Positions 8,038 through 62,633 of a DNA stretch of 64,000 nucleotides are shown here, in pieces. How positions within the stretch are numbered: position 1 is the first letter of the stretch; every line of letters begins with the position of its first letter. This DNA comes from Pseudoalteromonas arctica A 37-1-2 (GTDB lineage: Bacteria; Pseudomonadota; Gammaproteobacteria; Enterobacterales; Alteromonadaceae). Location: NCBI RefSeq assembly GCF_000238395.3, contig NZ_CP011026.1:248001-312000 (forward strand), in the 5' to 3' direction. Both the position numbers and the translations under genes were made by a program. Below the pieces are notes generated by a model. It was not told where the DNA came from and searched no databases. It was given only the letters and a program-made list of their open reading frames with translations.

Positions 8038-8191
8038 CAGTAATACTTTCCAAAACGCCAATTAAAACAACACCAAACACTTCTTTATATGCTGCGTAAA
8101 AGCACAGTAATCGATTGAACCAAAATAGGAACTCAGCTATGGTTTGTTTATCAATAAAAATAAATAAAAAAACGAGTTAATCTACAGGCTC
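8038..8191 (+). mobile_element. Solo right end of the IS1182-type element (repeat B1)
   Basis: This stretch matches the right-hand non-coding end of the intact IS at 59172-61028 (compare 60880-61028) and ends in the same terminal repeat, GAGTTAATCTACAGGCTC. The next bases are GTTGG, an attC-crossover-like GTT, leading into a small gene. No transposase part remains. Confidence 0.75.
8115..8143 (+). promoter_or_regulatory. Outward promoter-like motif in IS right end, copy 1
   Basis: TTGAAC, 17 bases, TATGGT. The motif is conserved in all four copies of this IS end and points into the gene starting at 8217, 74 bp downstream. Four of six bases match each sigma-70 hexamer with ideal spacing. Confidence 0.5.
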
Positions 8192-8942: not shown

Positions 8943-9063
8943 CTCTAACAAGTCGTAAAGCAGAACAAAAAAAATCTGGTTTTTACTGCTATGTCGCTTA
9001 CTTTAGCAAATATATTTTGCCTATTTAAGGCAGCACTAGATATAAAAATACAAGGATGCATGA

Positions 9064-9651: not shown

Positions 9652-9707
9652 AATGGCAGGCTTTTGAATTATTACCAGAGCCGCTTTTGAAAATTTATGC
9701 ATAACTG

Positions 9708-9790
9708 AGTAACTGATTGAACAAAATAGGAACTTAGCTATGGTTTGATTATCAATAAAATAAATAAAAAACGAGTTAATCTACAGGCTC
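9708..9790 (+). mobile_element. Short solo right end of the IS1182-type element (repeat B2)
   Basis: Only the last 83 bp of the IS end survive here, from CTGATTGAAC to the terminal GAGTTAATCTACAGGCTC. Notably, this minimal remnant still contains the promoter-like motif (9717-9744). The base after the end is A rather than the usual GTT, so the junction is altered. Confidence 0.65.
9717..9744 (+). promoter_or_regulatory. Outward promoter-like motif in IS right end, copy 2
   Basis: TTGAAC, 16 bases, TATGGT, pointing into the gene at 9818, 74 bp downstream. It is the best preserved part of an otherwise eroded IS end. Confidence 0.45.
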
Positions 9791-13462: not shown

Positions 13463-13537
13463 TGAATTAACAGTGACGCCAGCCTAAGTTTTTTCATTAA
13501 GTTAGAATGGCTGTCCTGTTTAGCTGTTTCTTTACGC

Positions 13538-13788
13538 TGCGGCAACTGTATTGCCTTGTTCATAATGTAGAAAAGCTGCAAAACGCGATGTATTAAGAAA
13601 GATAAGCCCTTAGTACCTCAATAAAGTCACTCAAACACCAGTGTTCCCTTCTAAAATACTAATTTAAACAACACCGAACACTTTTTGTATTTTACGTAAA
13701 ATACAGTAAACGATTGAACCAAAATATGAACTCGGCTATGGTTTATTTACCAATAAAAATAAATAAAAAACGAGTTAACCTGCTGCTT
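13538..13788 (+). mobile_element. IS1182-type 3' relic: last transposase codons plus right end (repeat B3)
   Basis: 13538-13602 matches the last 20 or so codons of the transposase at 59293-60831 (CGGCAACTGTATTGCCTTGT is shared) but has an internal stop. 13639-13788 matches the non-coding right end, although its final terminal repeat is altered (GAGTTAACCTGCTG). GTTAGC, a consensus attC crossover, follows at 13789. Confidence 0.7.
13714..13742 (+). promoter_or_regulatory. Outward promoter-like motif in IS right end, copy 3
   Basis: TTGAAC, 17 bases, TATGGT, pointing toward the gene at 13811, 69 bp downstream. The surrounding IS sequence has diverged more than the two hexamers have. Confidence 0.45.
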
Positions 13789-58200: not shown

Positions 58201-58300
58201 ATATAACAAGGCATTTAAACGGAACTAAAACAGTGGGTTAGGTTTCGCTTCGCTACACATTTTAACCCACAATTTTAGTCCGCTTAATGCGGGCGTTAGC
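58201..58300 (+). other. attC recombination site 1
   Basis: The 5' box ATATAACAAGGCATTTAA and the 3' box TTAATGCGGGCGTTAGC are complementary in the manner of attC sites (R'' AACA, R' G/TTAGC). The inner arms GAACTAAAACAGTGGGTTA and TAACCCACAATTTTAGTC pair well. This is the best-preserved site of the array, ending the zinc-ribbon cassette. Confidence 0.9.
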
Positions 58301-58323: not shown

Positions 58324-59133
58324 ATGAAACATGGTCCAAATATACTATTCATATCTCATGGAGGTGGGCCAATGCCACTTCTAGGCGATGAAGGGCACAA
58401 AGAGATGGTGAATTGTTTACAAGACATTGCTACTAAAATAATTAAGCCATCGGCTATCATCGTGATTAGTGCACATTGGGAGGAAACCATACCGACCATT
58501 ACTTCCGGGGATAAGCCAAGTTTAATTTACGATTATTACGGGTTTCCACAAGAATCGTACAATATTGAATACCCTTGTATGGGGGAGCCTCAGCTAGCGG
58601 AGCAGATTTATAACTTGCTCGAAAGCGAAGGAATTGACGCTAATCTCAATGAGAAACGGGGTTTCGATCATGGCCTTTTTGTGCCGTTAAAAATAATGTA
58701 CCCAAATGCGGATATTCCATGCGTTCAGCTGTCCCTTGTTAACAGTCTTGACCCCGATCAGCACTTAAACATAGGGCAGGCACTTCAAAACTTGGATTAT
58801 AAAGATTTACTTGTTATTGGTTCGGGATTTTCATTTCATAACATGAAGGCTTTTTTTGAATCAGATACCAACGAGTCAAAAGCAAAGAATGAAGCCTTTG
58901 AGACTTGGCTTCTAGAGACATGCTCTAATTCAGGTTTCAGTGAAAAGGAAAGGAGGGCCAGGCTATCTCAATGGGCTACAGCCCCTGCTGCCCGTTATTG
59001 TCATCCCAGAGAAGAGCATTTGTTACCGTTACACGTCTGCTATGGAATTGCTCAACGAAGTTGTTCGGAATCTTTTGAATTGAAGATACTAAACAAGAAG
59101 TCGAGCATGTATCTTTGGTCAACAAAATGCTAA
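58324..59133 (+). CDS. DODA-type class III extradiol dioxygenase (YgiD-like), cassette gene
   Basis: 269 residues. Metal and catalytic His residues: LFISHGGGPMPLLGDEGHKE, VISAHWEETIPTI, RGFDHGLFVPLKIMYP and the late YCHPREEHLLPLHVCYG. E. coli YgiD and plant DODA open the ring of L-DOPA; the physiological substrate in bacteria is unsettled. Flanked by attC sites 1 and 2, so it travels as a cassette. Base use is slightly richer in GC than its neighbours. The gene is full length. Confidence 0.85.
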   Translation: MKHGPNILFISHGGGPMPLLGDEGHKEMVNCLQDIATKIIKPSAIIVISAHWEETIPTITSGDKPSLIYDYYGFPQESYNIEYPCMGEPQLAEQIYNLLESEGIDANLNEKRGFDHGLFVPLKIMYPNADIPCVQLSLVNSLDPDQHLNIGQALQNLDYKDLLVIGSGFSFHNMKAFFESDTNESKAKNEAFETWLLETCSNSGFSEKERRARLSQWATAPAARYCHPREEHLLPLHVCYGIAQRSCSESFELKILNKKSSMYLWSTKC

Positions 59134-59171
59134 CAAAGCGTTGCACCGGACAAGCCGGTGAACGCGGCGTT
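59128..59171 (+). other. attC site 2, split by the IS at its crossover
   Basis: Short site: TGCTAACAAAGCGTTGCACC then GGACAAGCCGGTGAACGCGG ending CGTT. CACCGG pairs with CCGGTG, and GCGTTG with the AACGC side. The remaining GTTAGC of the crossover is found on the far side of the IS at 61029. Confidence 0.8.
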
Positions 59172-59292
59172 GAGGCTGTAGAATTACTCTTTTTAGGAAC
59201 GTATCTTACTATTTCGAATTGATTGCTTTTTAACCTTGAACCCATCCGTTCGCTGTGATCTAATAGATATTATTCACCCACGGTAAATCGTT

Positions 59293-60831
59293 ATGGCCAA
59301 CTACAAGCCTGACTTATCCTGTCAAAATAAATTCATTCCTATCAATTTTGCTGAGCAAATTTTGCCTGGCACATTTGAATATGCTCTTTGTTATATTGTC
59401 GAAAACAAGCTCGATTTATCGGGCTTTGACGCGTGGTATAACAACGACAAAACGGGCGCGGCGGCGTATCCGCCATCGGTGATGTTAAAGATTATTTTAC
59501 TGGGTTATGCACATGGATTAATTAGTAGCCGTCGGATTGCAAAGGCTTGCGAGCATAATATTTTATTTATGAGTGTGTCGGGGGATATCCAGCCGCATTA
59601 CACATCTATAGCGGGTTTTGTGGCTAAAATGCATGAACAGATTGAGCCGCTTTTTACGCAAGTGCTGATGATATGTGATGAGGAAGGCTTGATAGGCCGC
59701 AACATGTTTGCCATTGATGGGTGTAAATTAAAGTCCAATGCGAGTAAAGAGTGGAGTGGCACATTCGATGAGTTAGGTCGCAAAAAAGCAAAACTAGAAC
59801 GCGCAAGCAAACGTATTATTGAACGCCACCAATCACAAGATGGGCTGGGCGAAGAATTGATAACTCAGGATTTAAAACAAAAAGAAAAGCTAGATAAAAG
59901 TGCAGGTAAAATCACCGAGTTTTTAGCCACTCACAAAGAAAAAACAGGCAGTAAAGGCAAGCCAGTTAAAAGTAATATCACCGACCCCGACAGCGCGAAA
60001 ATGACGACCTCAAAAGGGACAATTCAAGGCTACAACGGCATCGCGATAAACGATGATAAACACCAAATTATCCTGCAAGCTCAAGCGTGGGGTTCAGTGG
60101 GTGAACAACAAACCTTACAGCCAGCCATTGCACAATTAAAACAGCAGCTTGCTAAACTCAATACAGAAAAACGGGCAGATGAACCCACGATTAAATTCAC
60201 TGCAGACAGTGGGTTTAACAGCGAAGTGAATCTTGAATTTATGGCGCAAAGCGGGTTCGATACCTACATTGCGGATAACCAATTTAGAAAAAGAAACCCG
60301 CTGTTTAAAGCCAGCGAAACATACGAAACGGAGCAAGAAAAGCGCAGATTAAAACGCAGTAAAGGCAAACCACGACTATTTACCTCAGATGATTTTCATT
60401 ATGATGAAGCAACCCAAACATGCCGCTGCCCTGCAGGCAATGCCATGTGGCGAAGCGGTATAAATGTAAACAGCCATAACCAAAAATACACCCGGTTCTG
60501 CGGTTACTTAAAAGACTGTAAAACGTGTCCGCTACAGCAACAATGCATGCGAAAGCCGCCCATTAAAACAGGGCGACAAGTGCAGTTTATCAATAATGAA
60601 TCACGCAAAAAGCTGAGCTATGTAGACAAAATGAAAGTAAAAATAGACAGCCCGATAGGTCGACGACAATACAGTAAACGACTTGGTTGTATTGAGCCGG
60701 TGTTTGGCAACATTACAGTGAATAAAGGCATGAATAAGTTGACCTTACGGGGGCAAGCGAAAGTGAATGCGCAGTGGCAACTGTATTGCCTTGTTCATAA
60801 TATAGAAAAACTGCAAAACACGATGCATTAA
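59293..60831 (+). CDS. IS1182-family transposase
   Basis: 512 residues, apparently intact. The N-terminal DUF772 region reads AYPPSVMLKIILLGYAHGLI and SSRRIAKACEHNILFMSVSG. The DDE residues are in FAIDGCKLKSNASKEW (D), FTADSGFNSEVNLEF (D) and GCIEPVFGNITVNKGM (E). A cysteine cluster (CRCPAGN; CGYLKDCKTCPLQQQCM) resembles the zinc knuckle of this family. ATG follows CACGGTAAATCGTT, a weak ribosome site, as expected for a self-limiting transposase. Confidence 0.93.
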   Translation: MANYKPDLSCQNKFIPINFAEQILPGTFEYALCYIVENKLDLSGFDAWYNNDKTGAAAYPPSVMLKIILLGYAHGLISSRRIAKACEHNILFMSVSGDIQPHYTSIAGFVAKMHEQIEPLFTQVLMICDEEGLIGRNMFAIDGCKLKSNASKEWSGTFDELGRKKAKLERASKRIIERHQSQDGLGEELITQDLKQKEKLDKSAGKITEFLATHKEKTGSKGKPVKSNITDPDSAKMTTSKGTIQGYNGIAINDDKHQIILQAQAWGSVGEQQTLQPAIAQLKQQLAKLNTEKRADEPTIKFTADSGFNSEVNLEFMAQSGFDTYIADNQFRKRNPLFKASETYETEQEKRRLKRSKGKPRLFTSDDFHYDEATQTCRCPAGNAMWRSGINVNSHNQKYTRFCGYLKDCKTCPLQQQCMRKPPIKTGRQVQFINNESRKKLSYVDKMKVKIDSPIGRRQYSKRLGCIEPVFGNITVNKGMNKLTLRGQAKVNAQWQLYCLVHNIEKLQNTMH

Positions 60832-60950
60832 GAAGGGGAAGCCCTTTTAACCTAAAATAAAGCCACTTAAACACCAGTAATAGCTTCCAAAATACCAATT
60901 AAAACAACATCAAACACCCACTTTATATTCTGCATAAAATAAGTAATCGA

Positions 60951-60979
60951 TTGAACCAAAATAGGAACTCAGCTATGGT
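60951..60979 (+). promoter_or_regulatory. Outward promoter-like motif in the intact IS right end
   Basis: TTGAAC, 17 bases, TATGGT, about 50 bp inside the right end and 96 bp before the next gene's start at 61075. It is the reference copy for the three solo ends. Confidence 0.5.
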
Positions 60980-61034
60980 TTGTTTATCAATAAAAAACAA
61001 ATAAAAAAACGAGTAAATCTACAGGCTCGTTAGC

Positions 61035-61082
61035 TGTATATTAGCTCGATGAAAATTAGGTGTATATTAGCTCGATGAAAAT
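61035..61082. repeat. Tandem duplication around a start codon
   Basis: TGTATATTAGCTCGATGAAA occurs twice, 26 bp apart (61035 and 61061), each copy carrying an ATG. The second copy supplies the true start at 61075; the first ATG (61049) is in a different frame. Confidence 0.85.
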
Positions 61083-61494
61083 ATTGCTATCCCTTTTGGC
61101 TCTTGTTGCATTATCTGTTGAAGCGGATGAGTGTTCGATGAATACGCCCGAGCAAACATTAGAGTGCTACGGTGAATATACTAGAGCCAAAGATGTAGAC
61201 TCGCTAAAAACAATCTACTGGGAGCTTAAATCGTTTCACTTTTCAGACAAGGTTCTAGAAGAATCTGCATATAAAGTCATTGAAAGAAAAGTCTATGAAA
61301 AAGACCTAGAACTAGGCGGCGCATTGTCTGAAGTTCCACTTTGGGCAAAGAAGGGGAACGTGGAGCTTATATCAGAGAAATCTACGAATGGTGCTAAAAA
61401 TACATACAGCCATATATTCAGAAAGATAAACGACAAATGGTATATGGTTGGACATAGTGCCCACGGTGTTGATGACTTCGATGAAGATTGGTAA
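61075..61494 (+). CDS. Small secreted protein (NTF2-like), cassette gene
   Basis: 139 residues. A signal peptide (MKILLSLLALVALSVEA) suggests export. MNTPEQTLECYGEYTRAKDV and the closing FRKINDKWYMVGHSAHGVDD resemble small NTF2/DUF4878-type domains, which assemble as cones. No active residues are evident. It is flanked by an IS end and attC site 3. Function unknown. Confidence 0.65.
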   Translation: MKILLSLLALVALSVEADECSMNTPEQTLECYGEYTRAKDVDSLKTIYWELKSFHFSDKVLEESAYKVIERKVYEKDLELGGALSEVPLWAKKGNVELISEKSTNGAKNTYSHIFRKINDKWYMVGHSAHGVDDFDEDW

Positions 61495-61498
61495 ACAC

Positions 61499-61572
61499 CT
61501 AACAAAGCCAGCCAGTGTCGCCAGCAAGCTGGCTGGACTCGTTTCACTCGCCCCTGCTGGCAGGCGTTATGC
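61499..61572 (+). other. attC recombination site 3
   Basis: CCTAACAAAGCCAGCCAGTG and CTGCTGGCAGGCGTTATGC form the outer boxes, with an inner stem CCAGCAAGCTGGC. The crossover is G/TTATGC. Ends the preceding cassette and starts the DUF2846 cassette. Confidence 0.88.
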
Positions 61573-61623
61573 TATTTCAATCAAACGAGCACTTGAAGCT
61601 CATAATTACAAAAAGGAAAAACA

Positions 61624-62081
61624 ATGAATAAAGTTTTAACCACTATTGCGGTAACAGTATTCTTGCTACCGGTTGTACTAGTGTTCCAATGGAGTCAAAA
61701 GAAAAAAGTGAACTCGCAAAACAATATAACTCCCCCTCAGAAGGAAAATCTGGCTTATATGTATATAGAGCTGGCAGCTTTGGCGGAGCACTTAAAAAAG
61801 ATGTATGGCTAAATGGTAAGTGTGTTGGCGAAACAGCCCCTAACATTTTCTTTTATGAAGAAATAGAGGGCAATACTGAACATAAAGTTTCTACAGAATC
61901 AGAATTCTCGCCTAATGATCTACTTATAAAAACTGAAAGTGGTAAAAACTACTTTGTTAGCCAATACATAAAAATGGGCGTTTTTGTTGGTGGTGCTGGT
62001 GTAGAACTAGTTGACGAAAAGAAAGGAAAAAAACAAGTATCTAAATTAGACATGGCTATAAAAGGTACATGTAGTAAATAG
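61624..62081 (+). pseudogene. DUF2846 lipoprotein with a frameshift at the lipobox (cassette gene)
   Basis: The first 16 codons (MNKVLTTIAVTVFLLP) are a signal peptide. One base earlier in frame, the DNA reads LLTGCTSVPMESKEKSELAK, a perfect lipobox (LTGC). The rest is a full DUF2846 domain: SEGKSGLYVYRAGSFGGALK, NIFFYEEIEGNTEH and YFVSQYIKMGVFVGGAGVEL. One missing base near 61669-61671 separates signal and domain; restoring it gives 152 residues. Either recent inactivation or sequencing error. Confidence 0.75.
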
Positions 62082-62083
62082 CA

Positions 62084-62169
62084 TAACAAATTGCTTAAAA
62101 AGAAAAATTACAGCTGGCTCGCGCTTCGCGCATTATAGCCAACCGTAATTTTCCTCTTAGCAAAGCGTT
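62084..62169 (+). other. attC site 4, split by a MITE at its crossover
   Basis: GCATAACAAATTGCTTAAAA begins the site, AAATTAC..GTAATTT forms the inner stem, and TTAGCAAAGCGTT ends the left part. The MITE follows, and GTTAGC resumes at 62316. Before insertion the site read GCGTTAGC. Confidence 0.85.
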
Positions 62170-62315
62170 GAGGCTATAGAATTACTCTTTTTTAAGAAAA
62201 ACAGCCTGTTTTATGGGTTCCAAATGCATTACCTAATGCCTTAAAAGCGCTTAGAATTAATTGTAGGAGCTCGTTTTTAAATTGATTTTGGCTGTTGGAG
62301 TTATTCTACAGCCTC
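62170..62315. mobile_element. 146-bp MITE with IS1182-type ends, inserted in attC
   Basis: Ends are GAGGCTATAGAATTACTC and GAGTTATTCTACAGCCTC, matching the ends of the IS at 59172-61028. It is flanked by GTT on both sides. No coding capacity, and internal sequence unrelated to the parent, so it would depend on the parent's transposase. Confidence 0.85.
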
Positions 62316-62336
62316 GTTAGCATTACAAGGAAGTTT

Positions 62337-62633
62337 ATGTCTATTTGCCCTAATTGTACTAAAAACATCAAACCTTTCAGTTTGTCTTTTTCCGTATTTC
62401 CACTTTACTTTAAGTGTGCTGACTGTAATGTAAGATTGAAGTTGGTCAGTTCAAAATTATTTTGGATTACATTTTTGCTTTATTTATTATTAATCGTTGT
62501 ATTACTAACTTATATTCCCTTTTTTACTGAGTACAATATCGGAGTCATCGTTGCAATAACAGGTTGGTTTGCTGTTTATTATAAAATTACACCTACTTTA
62601 TTCAACAAAGACAATCTTGAACTTTACAGATAA
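62337..62633 (+). CDS. Small zinc-ribbon membrane protein, cassette gene
   Basis: 98 residues. The N-terminal SICPNCTKNIKPFS and FKCADCNVRLKLV form a two-CxxC zinc ribbon. Two hydrophobic segments follow (WITFLLYLLLIVVLLTYI and IGVIVAITGWFAVYY). ATG 62337 follows CAAGGAAG. The crossover GTTAGC lies 16 bp upstream and an attC-like 5' box follows the stop. Function unknown. Confidence 0.7.
   Translation: MSICPNCTKNIKPFSLSFSVFPLYFKCADCNVRLKLVSSKLFWITFLLYLLLIVVLLTYIPFFTEYNIGVIVAITGWFAVYYKITPTLFNKDNLELYR

Follow-up and report, generated by a model that had tools for sequence, protein, structure and literature searches.

Insertion of an IS1182-like element and related MITEs at the GTT triplet of integron attC sites

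Does a transposon found exactly at the recombination site of an integron cassette owe its position to chance, to the integron integrase, or to a transposase that seeks out such sites? The question is raised by a cassette array of Pseudoalteromonas arctica A 37-1-2, whose 4.7-Mb genome comprises three contigs; the array is on the second, within a stretch of 64,000 bp (C2:248001-312000), hereafter referred to as the window. Two attC sites of this array are interrupted, one by a 1,857-bp insertion sequence (IS) and the other by a 146-bp miniature inverted-repeat transposable element (MITE), and both breaks fall at the GTT of the R' core site, which contains the integron crossover. From the copies examined in this and other genomes we conclude that the attC targeting is genuine and specific and that members of the sampled clade have it in common. 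The specificity is strong but not absolute, since GTT sites outside recognizable attCs are occupied in Desulfospira joergensenii and in some other genomes.

Two interrupted attC sites in one array

The initial annotation placed the IS at 59172-61028 and the MITE at 62170-62315, each splitting an attC and bordered by GTT on both sides, and these positions proved exact to the base. Read directly, the IS junctions are ...GAACGCGGCGTT / GAGGCTGTAGAATTACTC ... GAGTAAATCTACAGGCTC / GTTAGC, and those of the MITE are ...TTAGCAAAGCGTT / GAGGCTATAGAATTACTC ... GAGTTATTCTACAGCCTC / GTTAGC. The ends of the two elements, described earlier as shared terminal repeats, were closely similar on comparison. Removal of the element together with one GTT left bottom-strand attC-like hairpins of 46 nt for the IS and 91 nt for the MITE, as cut. 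The IS-site attC, 41 nt long, is intact without the element in three further genomes of the genus (loci L301, L302, and L303), and the cassette carrying the MITE has an 80% relative without it in another genome (L312).

The attC sites were identified with a covariance model, R1, built from 34 element-free attCs, including the one at 58202-58300 of the window. Four of the 38 candidates were excluded by eye (L119, L124, L155, and L171), of which L155 is acceptable in hindsight; some training attCs came from loci later scored, none from left junctions. A junction was considered anchored if an R1 match ended within a few bases of it, at a loose E-value of 10. The window contained matches at 58202-58300, 61498-61571, 8944-9040, and 62082-62173, the last of which stops at the junction with the MITE. 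At the IS junction, the short attC was missed at default filters and gave a weak anchored match with filters off (L001, 1458-1504, 11.4 bits, E 1.8).

Other copies in the same genome were found at the same point. There were 13 DNA matches to the IS, three of them full length, and five to the MITE, four of them full length. All full-length IS copies lie in attCs with GTT on both sides, and all full-length MITEs interrupt an attC or attC-like site at the same position. R1 anchored L001 (weakly), L002, L003, L017, L018, and L019, and L020 was unanchored. The 10 partial IS matches all derive from the right part of the element, and the four read with an intact right end (L004, L005, L006, and L008) are followed by GTT.

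Many IS remnants have left breakpoints in common, together with a decayed stretch (L004, L005, and L006, as well as genus matches starting from IS position 1538 or 1394), and the palindrome AATTAGGATGACACCCATCCTAATT, or a near version of it, is located close to L004 and L005. The shared-breakpoint remnants are perhaps copies of one defective derivative, and the right-end-only remnants from about IS position 1538 seem to be descendants of a decayed copy. The window also carries a second, decayed cassette-like region with right-end IS remnants at 8038-8191, 9695-9790, and 13535-13781, the first followed by GTT and the second by ATT; the R1 match at 8944-9040 lies in this region.

Table 1. Features of the cassette array and of the two insertions (window coordinates)
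Feature	Position	Strand	Basis
Uninterrupted attC of the upstream cassette of the array	58202..58300	+	R1, 80.7 bits, E 1.9e-17; among the 34 training sequences
Cassette open reading frame (ORF), 269 aa; its own attC holds the IS	58324..59133	+	ORF list
Interrupted attC, left part (R''-L''-L'-GTT)	59130..59171	+	Sequence; fold of the joined site; weak anchored model match, filters off; 41-nt attC in L301-L303
Target triplet GTT, left copy (IS)	59169..59171	+	Sequence
IS, 1,857 bp, transposase gene uninterrupted	59172..61028	+	Sequence; one of three full-length genome copies
Left terminal inverted repeat of IS, GAGGCTGTAGAATTACTC	59172..59189	+	Sequence
Transposase gene, 512 aa	59293..60831	+	ORF list; NCBIfam IS1182; Pfam DUF772 and DDE_Tnp_1_6
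Right terminal inverted repeat of IS, minus-strand reading GAGCCTGTAGATTTACTC	61011..61028	-	Sequence
Right GTT and remainder of R' (GTTAGC), IS	61029..61034	+	Sequence
Next cassette ORF, 144 aa	61060..61494	+	ORF list
Uninterrupted attC of the 144-aa cassette	61498..61571	+	R1, 23 bits, E 0.0034
Cassette ORF, 130 aa; its own attC holds the MITE	61689..62081	+	ORF list
Left part of the MITE-interrupted attC	62082..62169	+	R1 match 62082-62173, 44.4 bits
Left GTT copy (MITE)	62167..62169	+	Sequence
MITE, 146 bp, IS-like ends	62170..62315	+	Sequence
Right GTT and remainder of R' (GTTAGC), MITE	62316..62321	+	Sequence
Cassette ORF downstream of the MITE	62337..62633	+	Sequence; the ORF list has a longer frame, 62295-62633, starting inside the MITE

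Copies in the genus and in more distant relatives

DNA matches to the IS were found in 51 of 108 genomes of the genus. At 29 of these loci (L048-L076), GTT preceded every left end extending to IS base 1 (22 of 22) and followed every right end (20 of 20), one of which (L051) has one changed tip base. The closest copies read (L048, L049, and L050, 98 to 91% DNA identity) were model-anchored in attC. Sixty further ends were chosen among the matches listed for the genus, some in genomes overlapping those of the named relatives described below. The triplets were 16 GTT, 2 GCT, 1 ATT, and 1 GTG (a truncated end) at 20 left ends, and 37 GTT, 1 GGT, 1 ATT, and 1 GTA at 40 right ends; of the 20 left junctions, 16 were anchored by R1. 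The MITE matched 25 of the 108 genomes, and 51 of 62 distinct copies had GTT on both sides; in the first batch, counted by hand, 25 of 31 MITE junctions were model-anchored at default filters. Nested arrangements, IS-GTT-MITE (L261 and L348, one place) and MITE-GTT-MITE (L324), are expected if the GTT at the attC foot is hit again.

Named relatives of the transposase, the best 80 of 278 from a scan of species genomes, had protein identities from 98% to 43%, with the nearest one in Pseudoalteromonas. At least one end was resolved in 79 loci and both ends in 65. Among the 80 loci, terminal inverted repeats resembling GAGGCTGTAGAA, with at most 3 of 12 mismatches, were present at the left end in 75 and at the right end in 69. 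The flanking triplets were identical on both sides in 62 of the 65 loci: 58 GTT, 2 AAC (reversed copies), 1 ATT, and 1 AAT. The default-filter R1 run yielded 122 matches, all recounted, which gave 50 anchored loci; a rerun with filters off covered 23 of the 30 loci unanchored at that stage, and 12 of these 23 entered the recount, adding four (L122, L128, L130, and L164). Thus, R1 was anchored at the junction in 54 of 79 loci. By protein identity, among the 75 loci with a left end, anchoring was found in 33 of 36 at 70% or more and in 3 of 4 at 60%-69%. In 52 of the 54 anchored copies, the transposase gene points in the attC direction, and two copies (L134 of Photobacterium damselae and L140) are reversed; a neighboring attC at each of these loci is oriented like the interrupted one. 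The suggestion that two hits at the same three bases imply specific targeting is therefore supported by the copies in the genome, the genus, and the named relatives. The initial annotation proposed comparing relatives' flanks with attC and named most of them lying outside attC as contrary evidence; with our own covariance model, the copies examined showed the reverse.

L134, L135, and L140 have 61%-63% identity and include both reversed copies, with AAC on each side, and the AAT/AAT copy (L135). In the tree described below, L134 was not joined with L135 and L140.

Several results weigh against attC targeting. Twenty-five of the 79 named loci were unanchored, comprising 4 without a left end, 2 with a left flank of 5 bp, and 19 others; below 60% identity, only 18 of 35 loci were anchored, and the weakest anchored matches, with E of about 1 to 3, were counted for position alone. 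Four unanchored sites (L165, L169, L170, and L174) look attC-like by eye, and 11 (L135, L136, L150, L156, L158, L160-L163, L167, and L173) do not; of the latter, L136 and L162 seem, by eye, to be in coding sequence. Next to the GTT at these 11 non-attC sites, a stem was weakly enriched (p 0.016 versus 3,287 background GTT sites). D. joergensenii accounts for eight of the 80 copies, all GTT/GTT, of which one is anchored (L164), two are attC-like by eye (L165 and L170), and the remaining unanchored ones are not. The triplets differ between the two sides in 3 of the 65 named loci (L130, L155, and L171) and in 11 of the 62 MITEs. In the window's genome, the left triplets of the full-length MITEs are GTT, GAT, CTT, and ATT, and the right one is GTT in each, so that three of them now lack a perfect duplication. 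In addition, neither an ad hoc attC pairing score nor a constrained-fold attC score separated the junctions from background GTT sites; the covariance model was adopted because these scores failed to discriminate.

The transposase contains DUF772 and DDE_Tnp_1_6 domains, each above the Pfam gathering score, which is the architecture of the IS1182 family. The earlier label "IS1182-type" holds in that IS1182 is the nearest family; since the protein scores 260.9 bits against NF033551, below the NCBIfam cut-off of 270, the element appears to be a divergent branch. Scores of the same clade straddle this cut-off, with L195 (301.3), L197 (288.9), and L199 (273.8) above it and L201 (264.9), L202 (262.8), and L204 (251.7) below. 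Residues D142, D305, and E468, unchanged across all 34 sequences of an alignment, are candidates for the DDE catalytic triad. Family searches with the transposase gave matches to DDE-type families only and none to IS110/IS1111, and a sequence search against solved structures yielded nothing useful. Proteins of the wider group are numerous: homology searches, two in number and with 8,000 candidates each, returned at least 5,245 of them at E<=1e-20 and at least 7,933 at E<=1e-60, sets that may overlap and that were counted irrespective of attC context. Relatives were present in just three records of the plasmid collection.

Deeper relatives were sought in a draw of 229 genomes from the class, 34 of which had a match to NF033551; 25 of 30 loci were given to the end finder, and 23 were readable (L207 had no match and L210 was too short). 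All eight readable relatives with 39.6%-45.0% identity to the window's transposase had GTT on both sides (L195, L197, L199, L201, L202, L204, L206, and L211). In L202, the ends are three bases outside those called; in L197 and L211, the left flank consists of GTT only, followed by the contig end; and L199 does not differ from the named locus L175 in protein or flanks. Among 15 relatives with 19.7%-25.7% identity, some with weak end calls, none had GTT on both sides. An IQ-TREE phylogeny built from 67 transposases set all 57 rows belonging to the GTT/attC group apart by a branch supported at 100/100; they formed a clade on a long branch, and 10 of the 15 distant IS1182 proteins fell outside it. 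The off-attC copies are scattered within the 57-row group. The tree was midpoint rooted, drew a long-branch warning from IQ-TREE that included L166, L195, and L197, omitted L151 and L167 (no ORF of 300 aa), and carried attC and non-attC labels as known at that time. These data support an attC habit that is common to the sampled clade and not confined to the window's element.

Such a pattern could in principle arise without targeting, if elements inserted at many GTT sites and survived only in non-coding attCs. The intergenic location of attCs, where insertions are likely neutral, and the existence of off-attC copies agree with this explanation. Still, the copies occupy one attC triplet rather than any intergenic position, the closest copies read are already anchored in attC, and the distant IS1182 members read lack the GTT/attC habit. 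Survivorship alone is, in our judgment, highly unlikely.

Choice of the insertion site

The exact position, the identity of the flanking triplets, the attC context, its conservation in the clade, and the orientation bias are observed directly. They would very probably be explained by an IS1182-like clade whose own transposase selects the integron attC, cuts it with a 3-bp stagger around the R' core GTT, and inserts the element there, with the MITE moved in trans. Such an insertion would duplicate GTT and keep the attC arms undamaged to the left of the element; the transposase gene would almost always point in the attC direction. The MITE would be a non-autonomous element with the same ends. 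We infer the transposase both as the chooser of the site and as the mover of the MITEs; what it reads, beyond GTT and neighboring bases, may be a folded or extruded hairpin.

The integron integrase could be responsible instead, if an excised circle with GTT between the element ends were recombined into attC at G^TT in the manner of a cassette. The triplet does hold the integrase crossover, GTT on both flanks is also predicted by this scheme, and the common orientation of 52 of the 54 anchored copies would follow from it. But the first base of the right triplet would then belong to the element and should not track the target, and the ATT on both sides of L147 is the most direct evidence to the contrary. 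Right-hand ATT was also found in L171, L280, and two MITEs of L330, and non-GTT triplets occur on either side of MITEs (7 left and 6 right in 62 copies); these single-sided changes could be later mutations. The off-attC copies with GTT/GTT and the reversed copies L134 and L140 are likewise at odds with integrase capture. The ATT duplication, the reversed copies, and the off-attC copies thus point to the transposase rather than to the integrase. The IS is not a cassette with an attC of its own, as no R1 match at E<=5 was found inside it. The window's genome has a single integrase gene above the family cut-off, at C2:532542-533459, roughly 220 kb away from the array; two stops interrupt it, which might reflect later loss. 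Overall, capture by the integrase is extremely unlikely.

Across the genus, an integrase match is more common in IS-bearing genomes (47 of 51) than in the others (40 of 57; Fisher p 0.006). Four of the 51 IS-bearing genomes had no integrase match at E<=1e-60, where past loss is possible.

The window's genome also contains a tyrosine recombinase in five equally scoring copies (C1:1575244, C1:2591889, C2:405067, C2:533843, and C3:41907; L011-L015), possibly an IS91-like element with a recombinase gene. Three copies have an IS remnant or a MITE at a distance of about 6 kb or less, and one copy is next to the broken integron integrase. In L013, the 277-aa recombinase is followed by frames that look transposase-like by eye.

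If the transposase chooses the site, it could still read a short linear sequence such as GGCGTTA, hitting attCs because they contain it, with structure playing no part. GTT is kept at the off-attC copies, it reads CGTT with the preceding base in 4 of 10 strictly non-attC ones, and attC hits mostly read GCGTT. Against this, the window contains 60 GCGTTA hexamers on both strands and four attC-model matches at E<=0.01, so that, for a short sequence alone, coincidence at attCs is unlikely. The model matches at targeted attCs vary from 46 to 127 nt with different arm sequences, and GGCGTTA was found at none of the off-attC sites among the named relatives. Recognition by linear sequence alone is considered unlikely.

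A more far-reaching version of the transposase reading is proposed tentatively: a DDE-type clade dedicated to integrons may read the folded attC, as a cruciform or single strand, and cut at the foot of the hairpin, so that the left attC would stay working and the element could be recombined as a unit with the downstream cassette. Hints of such recombination come from the pairs L017/L323 and L336/L337, in which the MITE is 97%-98% and the downstream cassette 98%-99% the same and the upstream attC is different. These pairs may have arisen by recombination at the half-site that precedes the MITE or, alternatively, by independent insertion.

Relation to known attC-targeting elements

The initial annotation knew of no attC targeting in the IS1182 family, and no earlier report was found. 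The search covered open-access literature, including PMC12444791, PMC9229058, and PMC11023631, and gave no recognizable report of this kind; subscription papers and ISfinder were outside it. IS1182 is mentioned in passages of PMC10057117 and PMC9374279, where attC is not.

Integron integrases recognize attC largely through its fold. If the interpretation given here is true, a lineage of DDE-type transposases is an independent reader of attC sites, many environmental cassette arrays have been shaped, and perhaps locked or relabeled, by a dedicated transposon, and the IS-type elements and MITEs can be used as attC markers.

Known attC specialists are the IS1111-attC elements and the group IIC-attC introns, and stem-loop targeting within the IS1182 family is known from IS1272. 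According to PMC5678879, IS1272 of staphylococci is a family member that targets stem-loops (inverted repeats) and reportedly replaces them, leaving no target duplication; some IS1182 members target palindromes, per Siguier et al. as cited there. The elements described here share with IS1272 the nearest family and a stem-loop-type target, but retain the hairpin, carry a 3-bp duplication, and use one target class, attC, across the sampled clade.

The IS1111-attC elements, for which the references are Tetu and Holmes 2008 and Post and Hall 2009, are not known to leave a target duplication. The targeting of attC by the IS1111 group, mentioned in the initial annotation, agrees with PMC11187229, where ISKpn4 and ISPst6 are specialized on one attC end and have a seekRNA-guided DEDD transposase and subterminal repeats. 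Specialization on one end of attC is thus common to both. In contrast, the transposase here is DDE-type by family match, with DDE-type matches only, the inverted repeats are terminal, and 62 of 65 loci have identical triplets indicative of a 3-bp duplication; membership in the IS1111-attC group was rejected on these features.

Group IIC-attC introns are retroelements that also have attC as a target, including in integrase-less arrays, and, according to PMC7923331, insert into the bottom strand at R'' (TTGT/T), in the orientation opposite to that of the cassettes. Assignment of the IS to such introns was rejected, as its sole long ORF is the transposase and no Rfam match at the gathering threshold was found in the window. 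Like these introns, the present elements are mobile and use attC as their target, but they are DNA transposons, insert at R' (GTT), and usually point in the attC direction. Their recurrence, and that of the MITEs, at a single triplet of attC suggests that a further, unrelated kind of transposon has specialized on integrons.

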